From positions 1-36,961 of the IMG/VR virus record IMGVR_UViG_3300035181_001968: a DNA stretch of 36,961 bases; one strand, 5' to 3'. Position numbers and translations under genes: made by a program. Shown one piece after another: positions 3,062 to 36,634 of the stretch. The notes beneath the pieces are model-generated. The model ran no database searches. It saw nothing but the letters and a program-made list of their open reading frames with translations, and was not told where the DNA came from. The stretch comes from a virus. Numbering within the stretch: the first letter of the stretch is position 1; every line of letters starts with the position of its first letter.

Positions 3062-4405
3062 ATGACAATAGAAAAGAAAACTTTAGTATGCTCAGATGCT
3101 GTGAATAACAACAATAAATTTTGGAGCTATGAGTATGACACTGACACATCAATATGTATCGTTAAGTACGGACGAGTAGGTAAAACCGCTACTGAAGATC
3201 CTCCTAAGCACATGTCACGTTCTGAACTTGACACCAAGATCCGTGAAAAACTGCGTGCTCGCGGAAAAGAAGGTACCCCTACCTATAAACCTCCTTATCG
3301 TGAAATCGCAGTTGTGATTGACACGGTTCCCACAGATCCAGCAGCTAATCTATCAAAAGAAGTTGTGCGTGAAGCGGCAAAAAGTCAACTTGCAAAAAAT
3401 AATAGTGAGCTATCAACCCTCGTTGAACGCTTAGTTGAAGCTAATCGCCACGAGTTGATAAAAACTTCAGGTGGTCAGATGGACATTGATCTCAAGACAG
3501 GGATCATCTCTACTCCGATCGGAGTAATTACAAAAGATACAGTAAAACAAGCGCGTGACATACTGGATAACTTGTCGATCTATGTCAATAAGCATGACTT
3601 TGATGCTAAACAGTACATTGAGTACTTGAACTCTTACTTGATGATGGTTCCACAACAAGTAGGACATGCACGAGGTTGGTATAAGAACTTTTTCAATACA
3701 CACAACACCCTAACAAAACAAAGCTCTTTGCTTGACCAGCTTGAAGCTTCGGCTGACTTGGCTGAAAGTCGTTTACTTGCGGCTAAGAATGGAGCCGTTC
3801 AAACCGCAATTTCAGATACACCTGACATCTTCAATGCAAAGCTGAATATCTTGACTGATAAGGCTGACATCGCCAAGATCGAAAAACTGTTCTATGACAC
3901 GATTAATGCTAATCATGATTCAAAAAATATGAAACCTGTACGTTTCTATGAAGTTGAGATCCCACATACAAAAGCAGCATTTGAAGCTGACGGTGCTAAG
4001 CTGCACAACATTCAGCTTCTATGGCATGGAACTCGTGTTTTCAATGTTTTATCTATTTTAAAGAATGGATTATTCTGCCCTCCAAAATCTGGATCCTTCC
4101 ATGTAACAGGCCGTATGTTTGGTGATGGAATTTATGGTTCAGATCAATCTTCTAAAGCGTTAAATTATTCAAGAGGTGGAACTTGGGATCATGGTCCAAT
4201 TGATAAATCGTGTTTTATGTTTTTAGTAAATTTTGGATTAGGTGATATGTACATTCCAAAGAGTTCATATGAAACTTTACCAAAACCCGGATATCATTCA
4301 ACATTTGCAAAACCAGGAGTATCTGGAATTCTTAATAATGAATTTATTGTTTATCGTAGCAGTCAAGTTGATATTAGATATCTAATTGAATTTGAAGAAA
4401 AATAG
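3062..4405 (+). CDS. poly(ADP-ribose) polymerase-like protein (WGR + helical + ART domains)
   Basis: A 447-residue PARP-family ADP-ribosyltransferase with three recognisable parts. Residues about 8-80 form a WGR-like domain (FWSYEYD, IVKYGRVGK). Residues about 115-245 align by eye with the PARP regulatory helical domain (TPIGVITKDTVKQARDIL resembles the PLGKLSKRQI region; NSYLMMVPQQVG resembles NRFYTLIPHDFG). Residues about 290-447 are the catalytic domain: LLWHGTR (H322), MFGDGIYGSD (Y358), NYS (Y369) and NNEFIVYRSSQVDIRYL (E427). H322-Y358-E427 reproduces the H-Y-E triad, so it should be active. Two nicotinamide- or adenosine-contact positions of PARP1 differ (Y889 to R351, S904 to A366). 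The site GGAGAAAGC precedes the ATG. The target is unknown; a Nudix hydrolase lies downstream. Confidence 0.93.
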   Translation: MTIEKKTLVCSDAVNNNNKFWSYEYDTDTSICIVKYGRVGKTATEDPPKHMSRSELDTKIREKLRARGKEGTPTYKPPYREIAVVIDTVPTDPAANLSKEVVREAAKSQLAKNNSELSTLVERLVEANRHELIKTSGGQMDIDLKTGIISTPIGVITKDTVKQARDILDNLSIYVNKHDFDAKQYIEYLNSYLMMVPQQVGHARGWYKNFFNTHNTLTKQSSLLDQLEASADLAESRLLAAKNGAVQTAISDTPDIFNAKLNILTDKADIAKIEKLFYDTINANHDSKNMKPVRFYEVEIPHTKAAFEADGAKLHNIQLLWHGTRVFNVLSILKNGLFCPPKSGSFHVTGRMFGDGIYGSDQSSKALNYSRGGTWDHGPIDKSCFMFLVNFGLGDMYIPKSSYETLPKPGYHSTFAKPGVSGILNNEFIVYRSSQVDIRYLIEFEEK

Positions 4406-20161: not shown

Positions 20162-20247
20162 GCGGGTGTAGCCTAGAGGTCAGGCACTTGCCTTCCAAGC
20201 AAGCAGACGTAAGTCGCACGCAGGTTCAAATCCTGTCACCCGCTCCA
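20162..20247 (+). tRNA. tRNA-Gly(UCC) with long variable arm
   Basis: Acceptor GCGGGTG/CACCCGC, D-arm GCCT-AGAGGTC-AGGC, anticodon arm CTTGC-CTTCCAA-GCAAG, T-arm GCAGG-TTCAAAT-CCTGT, encoded CCA. The variable region is 16 bases with a GAC-GTAA-GTC hairpin, unusual for a glycine tRNA. Confidence 0.88.
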
Positions 20248-22149: not shown

Positions 22150-22858
22150 TGGTAACCCCTGTTAAGAAAGCAAAAAGACAAAGAAACCTACTAACACTCG
22201 TATCTTCTTTGTGATTGACCGTTCAGGATCAATGCAGTCTATTAAGACTGAGACGATCGGTGGTTTTAATGCTTTTGTTGAAGAACAGAAAAAGATCCCT
22301 GAAAAAGCTACGTTTTCAATGATTCAATTTGATCATCAATATGATGTTGTTCATGATCAAATTGACATTCAAGCTGTACCCTTGATGACTGATGAAAATT
22401 TTCAGCCACGTGGGATGACAGCTCTCTATGACGCAGTAGGGATGACTATCGGTTCAAACATGAAGGCTAAAAAGAACGAAAAGACCTTGATGGTTATCTT
22501 AACTGACGGACAAGAAAACGCAAGTAAAGAATTTTCATATGAAAAAGTACAAGATCTGATCAAAGAAGCTCAAACTGATCATAATTGGGAAGTAATGTTC
22601 ATCGGAGCTAATATGAACGCTACTCAAGTGGCAACTGGGTTAGGTATCAGTGCAAAAAAATTCTGTAACATTTGACTATGACGCCATGGGCGCTACAAAT
22701 GCTCTAAGCACGATGAGTTATGCTATATCAAGCAAGCAAGCGCGGTTATACAACAGATATTTCAGCAACCTGTGGTTTTGTTGCTGATATAAATGATGTC
22801 GATCTAAGCACCGTATACGCTAACTTTAAATCTGCAGCTGATCAGAAAACAAAATGAT
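22150..22858 (+). pseudogene. vWA-domain protein, broken by three frameshifts
   Basis: The reconstructed product is a von Willebrand factor A protein of about 235 residues, with the MIDAS motif DRSGSM after TNTRIFFVI, then PRGMTALYDAVG, VILTDGQENAS and VMFIGANMNA. Three breaks are visible. One A is missing from an A run near 22177, so the ATG at 22150 runs into TGA near 22213. One extra A in a seven-A run near 22655 stops the main frame at 22675. A 4-base duplication (AGCA/AAGC) near 22730 breaks the tail, which resumes as GYTTDISATCGFVADIND and ends QKTK at 22858. The longest intact piece is 22211-22675. The final TGA overlaps an ATG (22855), the start of another broken gene. Sequencing error in the A runs cannot be excluded. 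Confidence 0.75.
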
Positions 22859-25301: not shown

Positions 25302-25463
25302 TAGATGTTGTTAAGGAATTCAAGTAGTTTAGCGGCGAGAACGGAGCTGAAGGCTAGTTCATCAGAATTAAGGTACCTTGATTCTGAAAAGAAAACCGTG
25401 AGGTGCTTTCGTGCAGGTCAGACCTTGGTTCGAATCCAAGCTTGAATTCCTTAACAGCATCTA
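25302..25463 (+). tRNA. interrupted tRNA-like element with 23-bp flanking helix
   Basis: Acceptor ATTCAAG (25318-25324) pairs with CTTGAAT (25441-25447). A D-like arm (GTTT...GAAC) and a T-arm CTTGG-TTCGAAT-CCAAG are clear. The acceptor pairing extends outward without a break to 23 bp (25302-25324 with 25441-25463, one G.U). Between the D- and T-arms are about 76 bases instead of about 26. They include a 12-bp inverted repeat (TCAGAATTAAGG/CCTTGATTCTGA). One reading is a split anticodon arm: CGGAG-CTGAAG (Phe-like GAA), about 50 extra bases, then C-TTTCG. The isotype is uncertain. Confidence 0.5.
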
Positions 25464-25515
25464 AGTCAAAGGCATGTTAATGACGAGACTTTGTTGCTCG
25501 TGTATAAATAAAATT

Positions 25516-25999: not shown

Positions 26000-26069
26000 G
26001 CCCTATCCAGTGGAACTGGTGCTGAGCCTACGAAGTTCGGTGACGGAGGTTCGATTCCTTCATAGGGTG
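26000..26069 (+). tRNA. tRNA-Arg(ACG) with shortened D-arm
   Basis: Acceptor GCCCTAT/ATAGGGT, anticodon arm TGAGC-CTACGAA-GTTCG, T-arm GGAGG-TTCGATT-CCTTC. Only 16 bases separate the acceptor and anticodon stems (CCAG-TGGAA-CTGG), fewer than normal. Confidence 0.8.
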
Positions 26070-26124: not shown

Positions 26125-26216
26125 TCCACGGTAGCATCAAGGTGATGCAGCGGACTGTTAATCCGTGACTTAATTGTCTAGGCTGGTTCGATCCCAGCCC
26201 GTGGAGCATCACATCC
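26125..26216 (+). tRNA. tRNA-Asn(GUU) with long variable arm
   Basis: Acceptor TCCACGG/CCGTGGA, D-arm GCATC...GATGC, anticodon arm GCGGA-CTGTTAA-TCCGT, T-arm GCTGG-TTCGATC-CCAGC. The variable region is 15 bases with GAC-TTAATT-GTC, unusual for asparagine. Confidence 0.88.
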
Positions 26217-26219
26217 AAT

Positions 26220-26295
26220 GGTTGTAAAGTGTCTATAGATACACGGGACCCTGTCAAGGTTCAATAGTTGGGAGCGTTACCCACTACAACCGCCA
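26220..26295 (+). tRNA. tRNA-Asp(GUC), alternative elbow
   Basis: Acceptor GGTTGTA/TACAACC, D-arm GTGT-CTATAGAT-ACAC, anticodon loop CTGTCAA, T-loop AGCGTTA, GCCA encoded. It has A8, no GG in the D-loop and no TTC in the T-loop. Confidence 0.85.
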
Positions 26296-26307
26296 AAATG
26301 ATAAAAT

Positions 26308-26382
26308 ACAGCATGAGTCAGCTAGGGTGGACACTTCCCTTTCAAGGAAGAGAGACGGGGGCAGAACCCGTATGCTGTGCCA
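26308..26382 (+). tRNA. tRNA-Glu(UUC), alternative elbow
   Basis: Acceptor ACAGCAT/ATGCTGT, D-arm GTC-AGCTAGGGTG-GAC, anticodon arm CTTCC-CTTTCAA-GGAAG, T-arm ACGGG-GGCAGAA-CCCGT, GCCA encoded. G8; T-loop starts GGC instead of TTC. Confidence 0.86.
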
Positions 26383-26400
26383 GATGTTAGAGTGTTTTGG

Positions 26401-26475
26401 GGTGACTTGATTGTGATAGTAGCAACCCTCTCTGTGAAAGAGGTAGAACGGGAGCGGAACCCGTAAGTCACCCCA
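26401..26475 (+). tRNA. tRNA-His(GUG), alternative elbow
   Basis: G-1 (26401) faces C73. Acceptor GTGACTT/AAGTCAC, D-arm TTG-TGATAGTAG-CAA, anticodon arm CCTCT-CTGTGAA-AGAGG, T-arm ACGGG-AGCGGAA-CCCGT, CCA encoded. G8, D-loop AG, T-loop AGC. Outer bases TTTGG/CCAAA extend the acceptor pairing. Confidence 0.86.
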
Positions 26476-26493
26476 AAGCGCTTTATGAAAAAT

Positions 26494-26568
26494 GGGCTGT
26501 TAGTGATAACGGGAGCACGGGTGCCTTGCAAGTACTTAGACGGGGTTCGATTCCCCGACGGTCCACCA
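26494..26568 (+). tRNA. tRNA-Ala(UGC)
   Basis: Acceptor GGGCTGT/ACGGTCC, D-arm GTG...CAC with GGG, anticodon loop CTTGCAA, T-arm CGGGG-TTCGATT-CCCCG, ACCA encoded. Canonical core. Confidence 0.88.
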
Positions 26569-26595
26569 GATAGAAGATAGATTAAAAGAAATAAT

Positions 26596-26667
26596 CGGTG
26601 TGTGGGTCAAAGGTTGATCACTCGTTTTGGGAGCGAGACTATGTGTGTTCGAGTCACACCACACCGA
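26596..26667 (+). tRNA. tRNA-Pro(UGG)
   Basis: Acceptor CGGTGTG/CACACCG, D-arm GGTC-AAAGGTT-GATC, anticodon arm CTCGT-TTTGGGA-GCGAG, T-arm GTGTG-TTCGAGT-CACAC. Confidence 0.92.
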
Positions 26668-26701
26668 CCGGTTTTCAGGTGGTTTTATCCTAGTGAAATG
26701 A

Positions 26702-26944
26702 CAAGGGGGAGGCTTATCGGGAACAAATAACCGATATGAGCGCCACGATGCTTATAGCGAATATACTCCGCAAGCTATAGGAAAATCTAAGAATTTATTA
26801 GAGAATTATTATGAAATTAATAGTCAAAAAGATCTTAATGAAATCTTTGATTGGATAAAGTTAAACTATGATCCTTTGATCAAGTATTGGAACAATGAAT
26901 ATTCTAGCGATCGTAATTTTTATGATGAGTTAGTAAAGATTTAA
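26702..26944 (+). pseudogene. open frame without a normal start, probable gene remnant
   Basis: About 80 codons (QGGGLSGTNNRYERHDAYSE, then GKSKNLLENYYEIN, FDWIKLNYDPLIKYW, FYDELVKI-stop) have protein-like composition but no ATG, GTG or TTG in a usable place; a TGA precedes the frame. The tRNA-Pro gene lies just upstream. Either the 5' end was lost or a frameshift has occurred. No family is recognised. Confidence 0.4.
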
Positions 26945-26948
26945 ATTC

Positions 26949-27022
26949 GGGATTCAAACATTAAAGTGATGTAACTGGCTTTTAACCAGTAAAACAGGGG
27001 GCAGTACCCTGGAGTCCCACCA
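26949..27022 (+). tRNA. tRNA-Lys(UUU), alternative elbow
   Basis: Acceptor GGGATTC/GAGTCCC, A8-A9, D-arm ACAT-TAAAGTG-ATGT, anticodon arm ACTGG-CTTTTAA-CCAGT, T-arm CAGGG-GGCAGTA-CCCTG, ACCA encoded. Confidence 0.88.
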
Positions 27023-27067
27023 AACGTTATATTGATCCCAGACATGTAGCGCTTCCAACACAGATAT

Positions 27068-27141
27068 AGTTCTTTAGCTCAATGGTAGAGCAATCGACCG
27101 ATAATCGATAGATGAAAGTTCAACTCTTTCAAGAACTACCA
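27068..27141 (+). tRNA. tRNA-Ile(GAU) with C33
   Basis: Acceptor AGTTCTT/AAGAACT, D-arm GCTC-AATGGTA-GAGC, anticodon arm ATCGA-CCGATAA-TCGAT, T-arm GAAAG-TTCAACT-CTTTC, ACCA encoded. U33 is C, as in tRNA-Val. Confidence 0.88.
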
Positions 27142-27196
27142 GTTACTTTCTAGTCTAGTAATAGGATGTCTGGTTCGATTCCAAGGAGGGCTGCCG
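27142..27196 (+). pseudogene. tRNA 3'-half remnant
   Basis: T-arm-like TCTGG-TTCGATT-CCAAG followed by GAGGGCT-GCC, without its own D-arm. The 5' strand AGTTCTT of the preceding tRNA-Ile could pair with this acceptor strand too (three G.U pairs), suggesting a duplicated 3' half. Confidence 0.45.
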
Positions 27197-27201
27197 TAAG
27201 T

Positions 27202-27272
27202 TGGGGTATAGTTAAGTGGTATAACAAAAGGTTTTGAACCTTTCATCCTCAGTTCGATTCTGAGTGCCCTAG
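27202..27272 (+). tRNA. tRNA-Gln(UUG)
   Basis: Acceptor TGGGGTA/TGCCCTA, D-arm GTT-AAGTGGTAT-AAC, anticodon arm AAAGG-TTTTGAA-CCTTT, T-arm CTCAG-TTCGATT-CTGAG. CCA not encoded. Confidence 0.9.
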
Positions 27273-27384
27273 GTAATTTTACAAGACAGTGAAAAGAATT
27301 CACAATTTGCTACTTGTTGGATCCATAACAATGAATCAATATGTAAATAATGGTTGGGTTAGAGGTAGAAACATGAAATTCAAA

Positions 27385-27460
27385 TCTGTCTAAGCTAATC
27401 TAGTGAAAGCGCTGCGCTGAAAACGCAGAGAGGTTGGAGCAAAACCAACAGACAGAACCA
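27385..27460 (+). tRNA. tRNA-Phe(GAA), alternative elbow
   Basis: Acceptor TCTGTCT/AGACAGA, A8-A9, D-arm GCT-AATCTAGTGAA-AGC, anticodon arm CTGCG-CTGAAAA-CGCAG, T-arm GTTGG-AGCAAAA-CCAAC, ACCA encoded. Confidence 0.88.
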
Positions 27461-27645: not shown

Positions 27646-27737
27646 CCTACGGCAGCTCTCGGTAGAGCAGGCGGTCTTATAAACCGTTTAGGGCAGATAA
27701 CCCCCAGGTCTAGGTTCAACTCCTAGCCGTAGGACCA
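27646..27737 (+). tRNA. tRNA-Ile(UAU) with long variable arm
   Basis: Acceptor CCTACGG/CCGTAGG, D-arm GCTC-TCGGTA-GAGC, anticodon arm GCGGT-CTTATAA-ACCGT, T-arm CTAGG-TTCAACT-CCTAG, ACCA. About 22 bases of variable region include GGG...CCC, as in class II tRNAs. Confidence 0.82.
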
Positions 27738-27800: not shown

Positions 27801-27872
27801 CACGATCTGGTGAACTGGCTATCACGGATCCCTCATATGGATTAGTACACGGATCGTAACCGTGGATCGTGA
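27801..27872 (+). tRNA. tRNA-Met(CAU) or Ile2(CAU)
   Basis: Acceptor CACGATC/GATCGTG, D-arm GTGA-ACTGGCTA-TCAC, anticodon arm GATCC-CTCATAT-GGATT, T-arm CACGG-ATCGTAA-CCGTG. T54 is A, but T55-C56 and the D-loop GG are kept. CCA not encoded. A run of eight C follows. Confidence 0.82.
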
Positions 27873-27985
27873 CTAAACCCCCCCCCTCTTTTTCTTGAGA
27901 TGTCTTATCTCAAGGTATCTTAGATCGAGTCATGGTAAATCTACCATCTCCTATATCAAAAGCTCTATGATTAACATAAAACTTG

Positions 27986-33517: not shown

Positions 33518-34315
33518 TTGAAAACGTTTAAACAGTATATTCAAGAAGCATCAGTGACTCCAATCAAATCAACTCCGATTGATTTACAAGAGGCATTTAA
33601 AGTCATTAAGAAGAACTGTTCCGATTCATTGTGGATGTTCGAATTTAAGACTCCGATATGGAGAGGAGAAAAACAACAAAATTCAATCTTAGGAAAAGAT
33701 GGAGTTGCTGTTATTGACACGACGAAATCAGAACGGAAAAGCAAAAATACAAGTAATTGGTACACGTTGATTATCGACAATAGTCCAAAATATAAAGAAT
33801 ATCCAAAAAGAAGTCAATCGCTTATCTGCACGAATAATATTAAATCCGCTGAGGTATATGGAACCCCTATGGCAGTTATTCCATTTAATAGCGCTAAAAT
33901 TGGAGTAGTCAATGCTCCAGATATATGGGATAAAACGATTACTATGGGCGATGAAAGAATGGACATCGAAAGTGCAAACAATTATTTTAATATTCTTAGA
34001 GAATTCGGACTTTCCGACACCAATTGGCAATCATTCGTTGATTTTGACAAGAAACTGAAAACCGATGAAAACTTTAGAGAGGAAGTAGAAGATAGTGTTG
34101 AAGACAAACCTTTAGAAGGCTTGTTGGATGATTTCGTTAATAAAGTCAGAAAAATGTATGATTATCTAGGATTTGAGTTGCTAACCCCAAAACAATATGA
34201 AAAAAGACCGACGACAAGTCGTGAAACAGAAATGTGGGTTGGTGGAGAAGTTGTGTGCCTTAGTGAAAATATTTTCAAAACACTATGTAACGAGTTCAAA
34301 ATTGAAAACATTTAA
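33518..34315 (+). CDS. putative injected ADP-ribosyltransferase, copy 1
   Basis: 265 residues, TTG start. Residues 1-11 MKTFKQYIQEA resemble the N-terminal capsid-targeting peptide of T4 internal head proteins, with a prohead-protease site I-Q-E|A. The rest has the order of an R-S-E ADP-ribosyltransferase: W48-R49-G50; SERKSKNTSNWYTLIIDN; KRSQSLICT (S99/S101) followed by a helix and G; AVIPFNSAKIGVVNAPDIW; and E236-T-E238 in RETEMWVGGEVV (ExE). I therefore infer a mono-ADP-ribosyltransferase packaged in the head and delivered with DNA, as with T4 Alt. It overlaps copy 2 by 14 bases. The enzymatic call comes from motif reading, not alignment. Confidence 0.65.
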   Translation: MKTFKQYIQEASVTPIKSTPIDLQEAFKVIKKNCSDSLWMFEFKTPIWRGEKQQNSILGKDGVAVIDTTKSERKSKNTSNWYTLIIDNSPKYKEYPKRSQSLICTNNIKSAEVYGTPMAVIPFNSAKIGVVNAPDIWDKTITMGDERMDIESANNYFNILREFGLSDTNWQSFVDFDKKLKTDENFREEVEDSVEDKPLEGLLDDFVNKVRKMYDYLGFELLTPKQYEKRPTTSRETEMWVGGEVVCLSENIFKTLCNEFKIENI

Positions 34316-35099
34316 ACAATATATTCAAGAAGCATCAGTGACTCCAATTAAATCGACTCCGATTGATTTACAAGAGGTAAAAGAAATTATTAAAAAGAAC
34401 TGCTCTGATTCATTGTGGATGTTTGAAACCAGAACAGCGATATGGAGAGGTGAAAAGCAACAAGATTCAATCTTAGGAAAAGATGGAGTTGCTATCATTG
34501 ACACAACAAAATCGGAACGGAAAAGTGCATCCGCGAGTAATTGGTACACGTTAATTATCGACAATCATCCAAGATATAAAGAATATCCAAAAAGAAGCAA
34601 GTCACTTATCTGTACGAATAATATAGAAACTGCTGAAGCATATGGAACCCCTATGGCAATTATACCATTTAATAGCGCTAAAATTGGAGTAGTCAATGCT
34701 CCAGATATATGGGATAAGACGACTACTATGGGAGATGAAGAAATGGACCTATTACGTGCAAACAGTTATTTTAATATTCTTAGAGAATTCGGACTTTCAG
34801 ATACTAACTGGCAATCATTCATTGAGTTCGATAAGAAACTGAAAACCGATGAAAACTTTAGAGATTCAGTAGAAAATAGCGTTAAAGGCAAACCTTTAGA
34901 GGACTTATTCGATGATTTTGTTAATAAAGTTAGAAAAATGTATGATGATCTAGGATTTGAATTGCTAAATCCAAAACAATACGAAAAGAGACCGACGACA
35001 AGTCCTGAAACAGAAATGTGGATTGGTGGAAAAGTTCTATGTCTTCGTGAAAGCATTTTCAAAACATTGTGTAGCGAGTTCAAAATTGAAAACATTTAA
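34302..35099 (+). CDS. putative injected ADP-ribosyltransferase, copy 2
   Basis: 265 residues from the TTG at 34302, which lies inside the last codons of copy 1; the start is fixed by identity of MKTFKQYIQEAS with the other copies and by GAGTTC upstream. It is very close to copy 1 along its whole length. WRGEKQQ, ERKSASASNWYTL, KRSKSLICT and PETEMWIGGKV keep the R, S and ExE positions. Differences cluster around residues 140-155 (MGDEEMDLLRANSYF) and in the central acidic stretch. A longer in-frame reading back to 34197 would lie inside copy 1 and is rejected. Confidence 0.65.
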   Translation: MKTFKQYIQEASVTPIKSTPIDLQEVKEIIKKNCSDSLWMFETRTAIWRGEKQQDSILGKDGVAIIDTTKSERKSASASNWYTLIIDNHPRYKEYPKRSKSLICTNNIETAEAYGTPMAIIPFNSAKIGVVNAPDIWDKTTTMGDEEMDLLRANSYFNILREFGLSDTNWQSFIEFDKKLKTDENFRDSVENSVKGKPLEDLFDDFVNKVRKMYDDLGFELLNPKQYEKRPTTSPETEMWIGGKVLCLRESIFKTLCSEFKIENI

Positions 35100-35871
35100 A
35101 CAATATATTCAAGAAGCATCAGTGACTCCAATTAAATCGACTCAACTTGATCTACAAGAAGTAGAAGAAATTATTAAAAAGAACTGCTCTGATTCATTGT
35201 GGATGTTTGAATCTAAGACTCCAATATGGAGAGGTGAAATGCGACAAGATTCAATCTTAGGAAAAAATGGAGTTGCTATCGTTGACACAACAAAATCGGA
35301 ACGAAAAAGTCAAAATACAAGTAATTGGTACACGTTAATTATTGACAATCATCCAAGATATAAAGAATATCCAAAAAGAAGTCAATCGCTCATTTGTACG
35401 AATGATATCGAAACTGCTAAAAGATATGGAACCCCTATGGCAATTATACCATTTAATAATGCTAAAATTGTGATAGTAAATGATCCAGATATATGGTATA
35501 AAATAATTGTAATGGGCAATGAAAGAATGATGATAGAAAATGCAAACGATTATTTTGATATTCTTAGAAAATTCGGACTTTCAGATACCAATTGGCAGTC
35601 ATTCATTGATTTTGATAAGAGATTGAAAACCGATGAAAACTTTAGAGATTCAGTAAAAGATAGTGTTGAAGGAAAACCAATAGAGAGTTTGCTGGATGAT
35701 TTTGTTAATAAAGTTAGAAAAATGTATGGTGATCTAGGCTTTAAATTGCTGACTCCAAAACAATACGAAAAGAGACGTGAAACAGAAATATGGATTGGTG
35801 GAGAAGTTGTGTGCCTTAGTGAAAGCATTTTCGAATCATTGTGTAGCAAGTTCAAAAATGAAAACGTTTAA
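35086..35871 (+). CDS. putative injected ADP-ribosyltransferase, copy 3
   Basis: 261 residues from the TTG at 35086, again overlapping the previous gene by 14 bases. WRGEMRQ, KRSQSLICT and RETEIWIGGEV are kept, while the loop before ExE has lost the four residues PTTS present in copies 1 and 2. The region MAIIPFNNAKIVIVNDPDIWYKIIVMGNERM differs most from the other copies, where the consensus is SAKIGVVNAPDIW, so target or regulatory contacts may differ. The targeting peptide MKTFKQYIQEA is unchanged. Confidence 0.63.
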   Translation: MKTFKQYIQEASVTPIKSTQLDLQEVEEIIKKNCSDSLWMFESKTPIWRGEMRQDSILGKNGVAIVDTTKSERKSQNTSNWYTLIIDNHPRYKEYPKRSQSLICTNDIETAKRYGTPMAIIPFNNAKIVIVNDPDIWYKIIVMGNERMMIENANDYFDILRKFGLSDTNWQSFIDFDKRLKTDENFRDSVKDSVEGKPIESLLDDFVNKVRKMYGDLGFKLLTPKQYEKRRETEIWIGGEVVCLSESIFESLCSKFKNENV

Positions 35872-36634
35872 ACAATATATTCAAGAAGCATCAGTAATTC
35901 CGATTAAATCGACTCAACTTGATCTACAAGAAGTAGAAGAAATTATTAAAAAGAACTGTTCTGATTCGTTGTGGATGTTTAAACGCAGAAGAACAATATG
36001 GAGAGGTGAAAATGATCTGAATTCAATTTTAGGAAAAGATGGAGTTGCTATCATTGACATAACAAAATCAGAGCGGAAAAGTCAAAATACAAGTAATTGG
36101 TACACGTTAATCATCGACAATAGTCCAAAATATAAAGACTTTCCAAAAAGAAGTCAATCGCTAATTTGTTCGAGTAATATAGAAATTGCTAAAGCATTCG
36201 GGCCCCCTATGGCAATCATACCATTTAATAGCGCTAAAATTGGAGTAGTTAATACTCCAGATATGTGGAATAAATCAGTTATTATAGGCGGCAAAAAAAT
36301 GGACGTCGAAGTAGCAAATAAGGTTTTTAATCCGCTTAAAAAATTTGGGCTTTCTGATACCAATTGGCAGTCATTCATCGATTTTGACAAAAAACTAAAA
36401 ACCGACAAAAAATTTAGAGAGGAAGTAGAAGATGATGCTGAAAGCAAACCTTTAAAGAGCTTATTTGATGATTTTGTTGTCAAAATTAGAGGACTATATG
36501 ACAATCTAGGATTCGAATTGCTAACTCCAAAACAATATGAAGAAAGAACAAAGAAAAGACGACGCGAAACAGAAATGTGGATTGGTGGAAAAGTCGTGGC
36601 TCTTAGTAAAGAAGTTTTTGAAACAATATTATAA
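35858..36634 (+). CDS. putative injected ADP-ribosyltransferase, copy 4
   Basis: 258 residues with a normal ATG (35858), unlike the TTG of copies 1-3. It is the most diverged copy: MFKRRRTIWRGENDLN, RSQSLICSSNIEIAKAFGPP, MWNKSVIIGGKKMDVEVANKVFNPL and KKRRRETEMWIGGKVVALSKEVF. R, S and ExE positions remain. It ends earlier (FETIL-stop) and does not overlap the next gene; 11 bases containing GAGTTC separate them, so the array's overlap pattern breaks here. Confidence 0.63.
   Translation: MKTFKQYIQEASVIPIKSTQLDLQEVEEIIKKNCSDSLWMFKRRRTIWRGENDLNSILGKDGVAIIDITKSERKSQNTSNWYTLIIDNSPKYKDFPKRSQSLICSSNIEIAKAFGPPMAIIPFNSAKIGVVNTPDMWNKSVIIGGKKMDVEVANKVFNPLKKFGLSDTNWQSFIDFDKKLKTDKKFREEVEDDAESKPLKSLFDDFVVKIRGLYDNLGFELLTPKQYEERTKKRRRETEMWIGGKVVALSKEVFETIL

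Follow-up and report, generated by a model that had tools for sequence, protein, structure and literature searches.

The locus described here raises the question whether natural tRNAs can exchange the contacts between the D- and T-loops, which form the elbow, for other contacts and still work. As the contacts G18-Ψ55 and G19-C56 are said to be conserved throughout all domains, natural covariation in the elbow has hardly been visible before, and Ψ55 is called universally conserved in reviews (PMC4810234, PMC7912444). We analysed a linear piece of phage DNA of 37 kb from IMG/VR (36,961 nucleotides, the whole of which is called the window below). Its genes include those for an Rnl1-type RNA ligase, a WGR-PARP protein, a thymidylate synthase and a DNA helicase, and it has a big tRNA cluster. 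A first-pass annotation had described five tRNAs in this cluster which carry RGC T-loops, A18-G19 and A8 or G8.

Five tRNA genes of the window

Reading by hand and a home-made cloverleaf scanner, which scores the stems, T33, positions 32/37 and CCA and is blind to the D- and T-loop sequence, both recovered the five genes as annotated, all on the plus strand and all with an encoded CCA. tRNA-Asp(GTC) lies at 26220-26295 and has A8, the D-loop CTATAGAT (A18 at 26237, G19 at 26238), the T-loop AGCGTTA at 26273-26279 and G73 (score 21.2). tRNA-Glu(TTC) at 26308-26382 has G8, the D-loop AGCTAGGGTG with A18 and G19, the T-loop GGCAGAA, which gives G54 and G58, and G73 (score 23.0), while tRNA-His(GTG) at 26401-26475 has G8, the D-loop GATAGTA with A18 and G19, the T-loop AGCGGAA and a G-1 at 26401 facing C73 (score 23.4). 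In tRNA-Lys(TTT) at 26949-27022 we found A8, the D-loop TAAAGTG with A18 and G19, the T-loop GGCAGTA with G54 and G58, and A73 (score 23.4); here the triple A8-T14-G21 replaces T8-A14-A21. Finally, tRNA-Phe(GAA) at 27385-27460 has A8, the D-loop AATCTAGTGAA with A18 and G19, the T-loop AGCAAAA and A73 (score 23.0). The scores of 21.2-23.4 are among the best of the window, and Markov-shuffled windows gave 0.4 hits scoring at least 15 per strand. All five satisfy the RF00005 cloverleaf, with stems of 7/4/5/5 bp (D stem 3-4), a 7-nt anticodon loop with T33, a 7-nt T-loop and CCA, and their discriminators (G73 in Asp and Glu, C73 with G-1 in His, A73 in Lys and Phe) are those expected from the anticodons. 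The canonical elbow, G18G19 with T54T55C56, is absent in each of them and A18G19 stands with RGC instead; the T8-A14 pair is likewise absent in all five, being A8-T14 in Lys, G8-G14 in His and other non-canonical combinations elsewhere.

It had also been noticed that the canonical tRNAs of the window with a readable D-loop keep GG with T55-C56, and we read the remaining tRNAs in the same way, with the exception of Arg-ACG at 26000, whose D-arm could not be read with confidence. An intermediate form is tRNA-CAT at 27801-27873 on the plus strand, which has the T-loop ATCGTAA, with A54-T58 instead of T54-A58, and the ordinary G18G19/T55C56; A54-T58 is a recurrent class. Two known scaffolds were considered for the five genes and ruled out: a truncated mitochondrial-type tRNA, as both the D- and T-arms are full, and a tRNA-Pyl-like scaffold, which combines an anticodon stem of 6 bp with a variable region of 3 nt (PMC6337575), as in the five genes the stem has 5 bp and the variable region 4-5 nt. 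We sought close DNA relatives of the window among GenBank phages and found none, and its tRNA-His gave no match there. A tRNA-Phe orthologue occurs in Pseudomonas phage Boevelstad, with GG retained and the T-loop ATCGTAA. The Xanthomonas phage X1 relative of the Lys tRNA was excluded from the G55 class, as it has ATC with GG. Three further tRNAs of the window have long variable arms: tRNA-Ile(TAT) at 27646-27737, whose class II-like arm of about 22 nt recurs in other phages (L090, L192), and tRNA-Asn at 26125-26207 and tRNA-Gly at 20162-20247, with arms of 15-16 nt. The long-arm tRNA-Asn is found also in L384, L389, Xanthomonas phage X1 and Brevundimonas phage Kikimora.

Standard finders do score such tRNAs poorly, as had been suspected. 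ARAGORN called 14 tRNAs in the window and none of the five, and by class it recovered 99% of the T55C56 tRNAs, 43% of the G55C56 tRNAs and 8% of those with a GGC loop. The Rfam tRNA model, with a gathering cut-off of 29 bits, gave 50.2 bits for Phe and, in a one-record search, 35 bits for Lys, and its search did not report the Asp, Glu and His tRNAs. As ARAGORN misses more than half of the G55C56 class, phage tRNA counts are too low. The window further contains, at 25305-25451, a long near-perfect hairpin with an outer stem of about 20 bp (TGTTAAGGAATTCAAG/CTTGAATTCCTTAACA) which encloses a canonical T-arm, CTTGGTTCGAATCCAAG; it is a tRNA-like element lacking the ordinary D/anticodon part. The stretch 25305-25470 folds at -59.5 kcal/mol and has neither an Rfam nor an ARAGORN match.

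Altered elbows in other viruses

A search with the helicase gave 79 related viral loci, in which 8 of 83 tRNAs had a non-TTC T-loop; among these, A18 with G55 was already seen in unrelated genes. Using the T-loop pattern RGCRGWA in viral contigs, we obtained at least about 410 non-TTC tRNAs at the loci fetched among the matches listed. Class counts are biased in most of the viral loci, which were gathered by this pattern; we therefore rely for unbiased pairing tests on T-loop-blind loci, for which viral tRNAs were picked by anticodon loop and stem letters only. In the latter sample the genes with G55C56 numbered 4 of 86 for Lys, 7 of 59 for His and 5 of 81 for Glu, and on these loci as a whole 103 of 2539 tRNAs (about 4%) belonged to this class. 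Loops which start with ATC (the A54-T58 swap, with GG kept) are common in the viral loci L208-L323 and L390-L606; in the same sample, for instance, they occur in 24 of 59 tRNA-His and 23 of 81 tRNA-Glu genes.

In most phages G55 tRNAs are usually a minority beside canonical neighbours, and the elbow classes are mixed within 114 loci. We found 193 disjoint near pairs of opposite elbow class, one Glu pair being 96% identical outside the loops, and in the cultured Brevundimonas phage Kikimora close Val genes have opposite but matched elbows. A tRNA-His with GGCAGTA and A18 is present in two further cultured phages, Jay2Jay and Evy of Streptomyces, although the annotation of only one of them lists it; by the scanner it is the sole tRNA of its cluster with an encoded CCA, which suggests that it came from elsewhere.

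G55 tRNAs are frequent in dense clusters, where identical T-arms would amount to long repeats, and T-loop starts diversify in several ways (GGC, AGC, TGC, ATC, TTT, TTA, TTG). Both observations would suit a cause at the level of DNA, namely that altering the T-arm word GGTTCGANTCC avoids recombination between genes or integrases which use tRNA 3' ends, the D-loop following so as to keep the fold. Nevertheless, 2162 of the 2539 tRNAs on T-loop-blind loci, which are clustered phage tRNAs, retain TTC, and the new loops themselves repeat, GGCAGTA recurring 72 times. We consider this explanation improbable.

Covariation across the elbow

Where the D-loop has 7 nt and the D stem 4 bp, positions 18 and 19 can be assigned simply by counting, and this holds for 959 distinct tRNAs. 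Among these the 18-55 combinations were G-T in 760, A-G in 180, G-C in 8, T-T in 6, C-G in 3, and T-G and A-A in one each, and the crossed states G18-G55 and A18-T55 were not found at all (0/959). At 19-56 there were 918 G-C, 25 A-T and 8 T-A. On T-loop-blind loci the 18-55 counts were 569 G-T, 25 A-G and no crossed state, and in a set of 533 tRNAs 521 were matched, whereas 2000 shuffles gave 295 on average and 331 at most. When D-loops of any length were admitted, the letters at 55-56 went with those at 18-19 in the same manner: TC with GG in 98%, GC with AG in 96%, TT with GA in 96%, TG with GC in 9/9 and GG with AC in 3/3, so that the 19-56 rule at all D-loop lengths extends to C19-G56 and to combinations with A18. 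Position 54-58 is T-A, A-T or G-G, with G58 in 204 of 205 G54 loops. Furthermore, corrected mutual information computed with no prior placed 54-58, 18-55, 19-56, 9-23, 22-46, 8-14 and 15-48 among the top non-stem pairs, which are known tertiary pairs.

To account for common descent we used a FastTree tree built without positions 18 and 19 and the T-loop, the sequences being short. On the best tree positions 18 and 55 changed 112 times each, and on supported branches they changed jointly in 21 of 21 independent pairs (p 9.5e-7). Joint change under the same control was about 10.8/12 for 19/56, 14.6/18 for 54/58 and 8.7/11 for 8/14, while 8/55, taken as negative control, showed no link (1.8 same, 2.5 opposite, p = 1). 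The proposal that A18 facing G55 and G19 facing C56 are co-adapted is thus supported, and D- and T-loops varying independently in related phages, which would speak against it, were looked for and the loops were seen to stay coupled. The part of the same proposal which placed position 8 in one concerted change is not supported: this position tracks 14 and shows no link to 55, and T8 is retained in 72% of G55C56 tRNAs. We have thus dropped the idea of a single concerted core. As 18/55, 19/56, 54/58 and 8/14 each change together and 8/55 does not, the changes of the elbow are shown to be separate compensated modules that can be combined.

The same data bear on whether these genes work. G55C56 tRNAs cover 45 anticodons, all major ones included; CCA is encoded in 428 of 466 of them and in 1355 of 1497 T55C56 tRNAs, and the discriminator for a given anticodon is mostly equal in both classes. 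Intact cloverleaves, CCA, discriminators and the near-identical pairs of opposite class together argue that the tRNAs work. The low covariance-model scores and the failure of ARAGORN might be taken as signs of decaying pseudo-tRNAs or of tRNA-like RNAs without a role in translation; against this stand intact stems, CCA, T33, matching discriminators, the range of anticodons and, above all, the compensated tertiary pairs, as decay yields no compensation. The pseudogene reading, which we regard as very improbable, was dropped on account of the intact stems and the compensation.

Relaxed drift is a further reading. Supplementary phage tRNAs may tolerate change at the elbow, and the double change would then be neutral and have no role in escape. 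The 112 switches on the best tree, the loci of mixed class and the several unrelated module types fit such a near-neutral crossing, and so does the independent variation of position 8, but the complete lack of crossed states among 959 tRNAs implies strong selection on the elbow. We judge drift to be a somewhat unlikely explanation, and the bacterial arrays described below bear on it too.

Bacterial arrays and a possible function

When 257 billion bases from the genomes of bacteria and archaea (84,980 species) were searched, the T-loop pattern matched 60 stretches, 35 of which sit in cloverleaves and 25 outside; among Verrucomicrobiota it matched 2 of 288 genomes. Descent of the G55 tRNAs from ordinary cellular host tRNAs is unsupported by these 35 loci and two genomes. 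Some bacterial arrays, in several Verrucomicrobiota, are nearly wholly G55, with ratios of 19:1, 17:0 and 15:0, and Chthoniobacter flavus Ellin428 has such an array in addition to, and apart from, a dispersed set of ordinary tRNAs. Relaxed drift fails to predict near-total G55 arrays beside such rarity.

In 6 of 12 genomes with a G55 array, a TROVE gene, of the RNA quality-control protein Ro60, lies in the array (so in C. flavus and others) or beside it, on the same contig and no more than about 5 kb away, as against 2 of 115 Verrucomicrobiota overall; the second of these two was identified by TROVE alone, and three G55 tRNAs adjoin it, no other tRNA being found in the stretch. Ro60 also adjoins arrays with mainly canonical elbows, in a cyanobacterium (L631) and in two viral loci (L238, L514), which links Ro60 to arrays and not strictly to G55. 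The tRNA cluster of the window has no TROVE protein, and the vWA protein at 22211-22675 is without a TROVE match. In the C. flavus locus (L611, 4142-10674) the array is followed by genes for a Lon-type protease, a TROVE/vWA protein, a further tRNA-Lys with G55 and an AAA ATPase, and these genes are possibly an RNA-damage response module. In another, viral locus (L563, 2553-7489) a TROVE/Ro60 homologue lies immediately upstream of an array of more than 20 tRNAs; there the pair 19-56 takes the permuted forms C-G, T-A and A-T, with D-loops that match.

Ro60 is a component of operons for RNA repair which respond to tRNA damage (PMC7790460), and long tRNA arrays can serve as stress-induced back-ups (PMC10272220). 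The Verrucomicrobiota arrays resemble the long, inducible trn operon of Anabaena and the Ro60/RtcB operon in being extra tRNA sets, tied there to translational stress, and Ro60 stands beside the C. flavus array too, while RtcB was not found among the proteins scanned there. They differ in that altered elbows go unmentioned in the passages of both reports that were examined.

We consider it likely, from the evidence of the genes themselves, that G55 tRNAs are working translation tRNAs with an alternative elbow independent of modification, and that they are probably replacement sets hidden from readers of the canonical elbow. The pairing part of this reading is well supported; the reason for selection we infer. 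They share with canonical type I tRNA (RF00005) the cloverleaf, the 7-nt T-loop, a Watson-Crick 19-56 pair and purines at 18 and 57, and differ from it in having A18-G55 in place of G18-U55, A or G at 54 in the five window genes, and no T54/Ψ55 uridines. In the RNA, by covariation, G55 for U55 comes together with A18 for G18, 19-56 stays Watson-Crick (G-C, A-U, U-A or C-G), 54-58 is U-A, A-U or G-G, and 8 pairs with 14. In the known T-loop architecture the gap between residues 57 and 58 is occupied by residue 18, and a U-turn begins at residue 55 (PMC4810234, PMC7912444). A G would be able to stand for the U in turns of this kind: G55-C56-R57 would preserve the turn of the T-loop as a GNR-type U-turn replacing UNR, and A18 would occupy the 57/58 stacking gap in place of G18, with its partner edge altered to fit G55. 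The flat 19-56 surface, which RNase P and the ribosome read, would thereby be preserved, so that processing and translation would be possible, while positions 54 and 55 would lose their modified uridines and agents which read TUC or G18 would no longer recognize the tRNA. That host T54 and Ψ55 are excluded, as the first-pass annotation held, follows directly from an A or G at 54 and a G at 55. With less certainty, phages and Ro60-linked bacterial arrays may hold replacement sets, which would stay usable after cleavage, faulty processing or undermodification of the canonical tRNAs.

We hypothesize that such tRNAs most likely benefit by not depending on modification by the host and by escaping readers of the canonical elbow. 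One CdiA-CT toxin domain at least reportedly cuts within the T-loop, between T and Ψ (PMC9086364). The minority position of G55 tRNAs among canonical neighbours in most phages would be odd if a whole set had to evade one agent. We know of no agent reading U55 or G18 that has been tied to any host of G55 tRNAs. A bolder version, which we put forward only tentatively, is a second, parallel elbow code, A18-G55 with freely permuted 19-56 and 54-58, kept by phages and by mobile or stress-linked tRNA arrays, which would hide whole sets from TruB/TrmA-type modification and from nucleases that read the elbow or T-loop, and so sustain translation when the canonical pool is destroyed.

Suppressor tRNAs with altered D- and T-loops have reportedly been obtained by combinatorial selection in the Steinberg laboratory. 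Like synthetic tRNA-Tyr cores, which retain U54-A58 and are built on a tRNA-Pyl scaffold (PMC6337575), these suppressors indicate that non-standard combinations of the two loops also support function; both are laboratory selections, whereas G55 tRNAs are natural genes. Phage tRNAs which evade anticodon nucleases (PMC10264068) are likewise altered so as possibly to escape attack on host tRNAs, but the changes reported lie in the anticodon loop, the T-loop, D-loop and elbow being unmentioned, whereas G55 tRNAs change the elbow. We found no earlier report of an A18-G55 elbow in the literature examined, although papers on arrays or on T-loop selection may mention it. The hundreds of natural examples, in phages and some bacterial clusters, offer a test of which contacts RNase P, the ribosome, synthetases and modification enzymes need, and the altered elbows suggest a new way for phages to continue translation under tRNA attack.

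Two further features were noticed in the window. A protein of some 265-300 aa is encoded at 33518-36634 in four divergent copies arranged in tandem; they start near MKTFKQYIQEASVTPIKST, and the two copies scanned gave no Pfam match. The phage WGR-PARP protein adjoins the Rnl1 RNA ligase (3062-4405 and 1813-2997).
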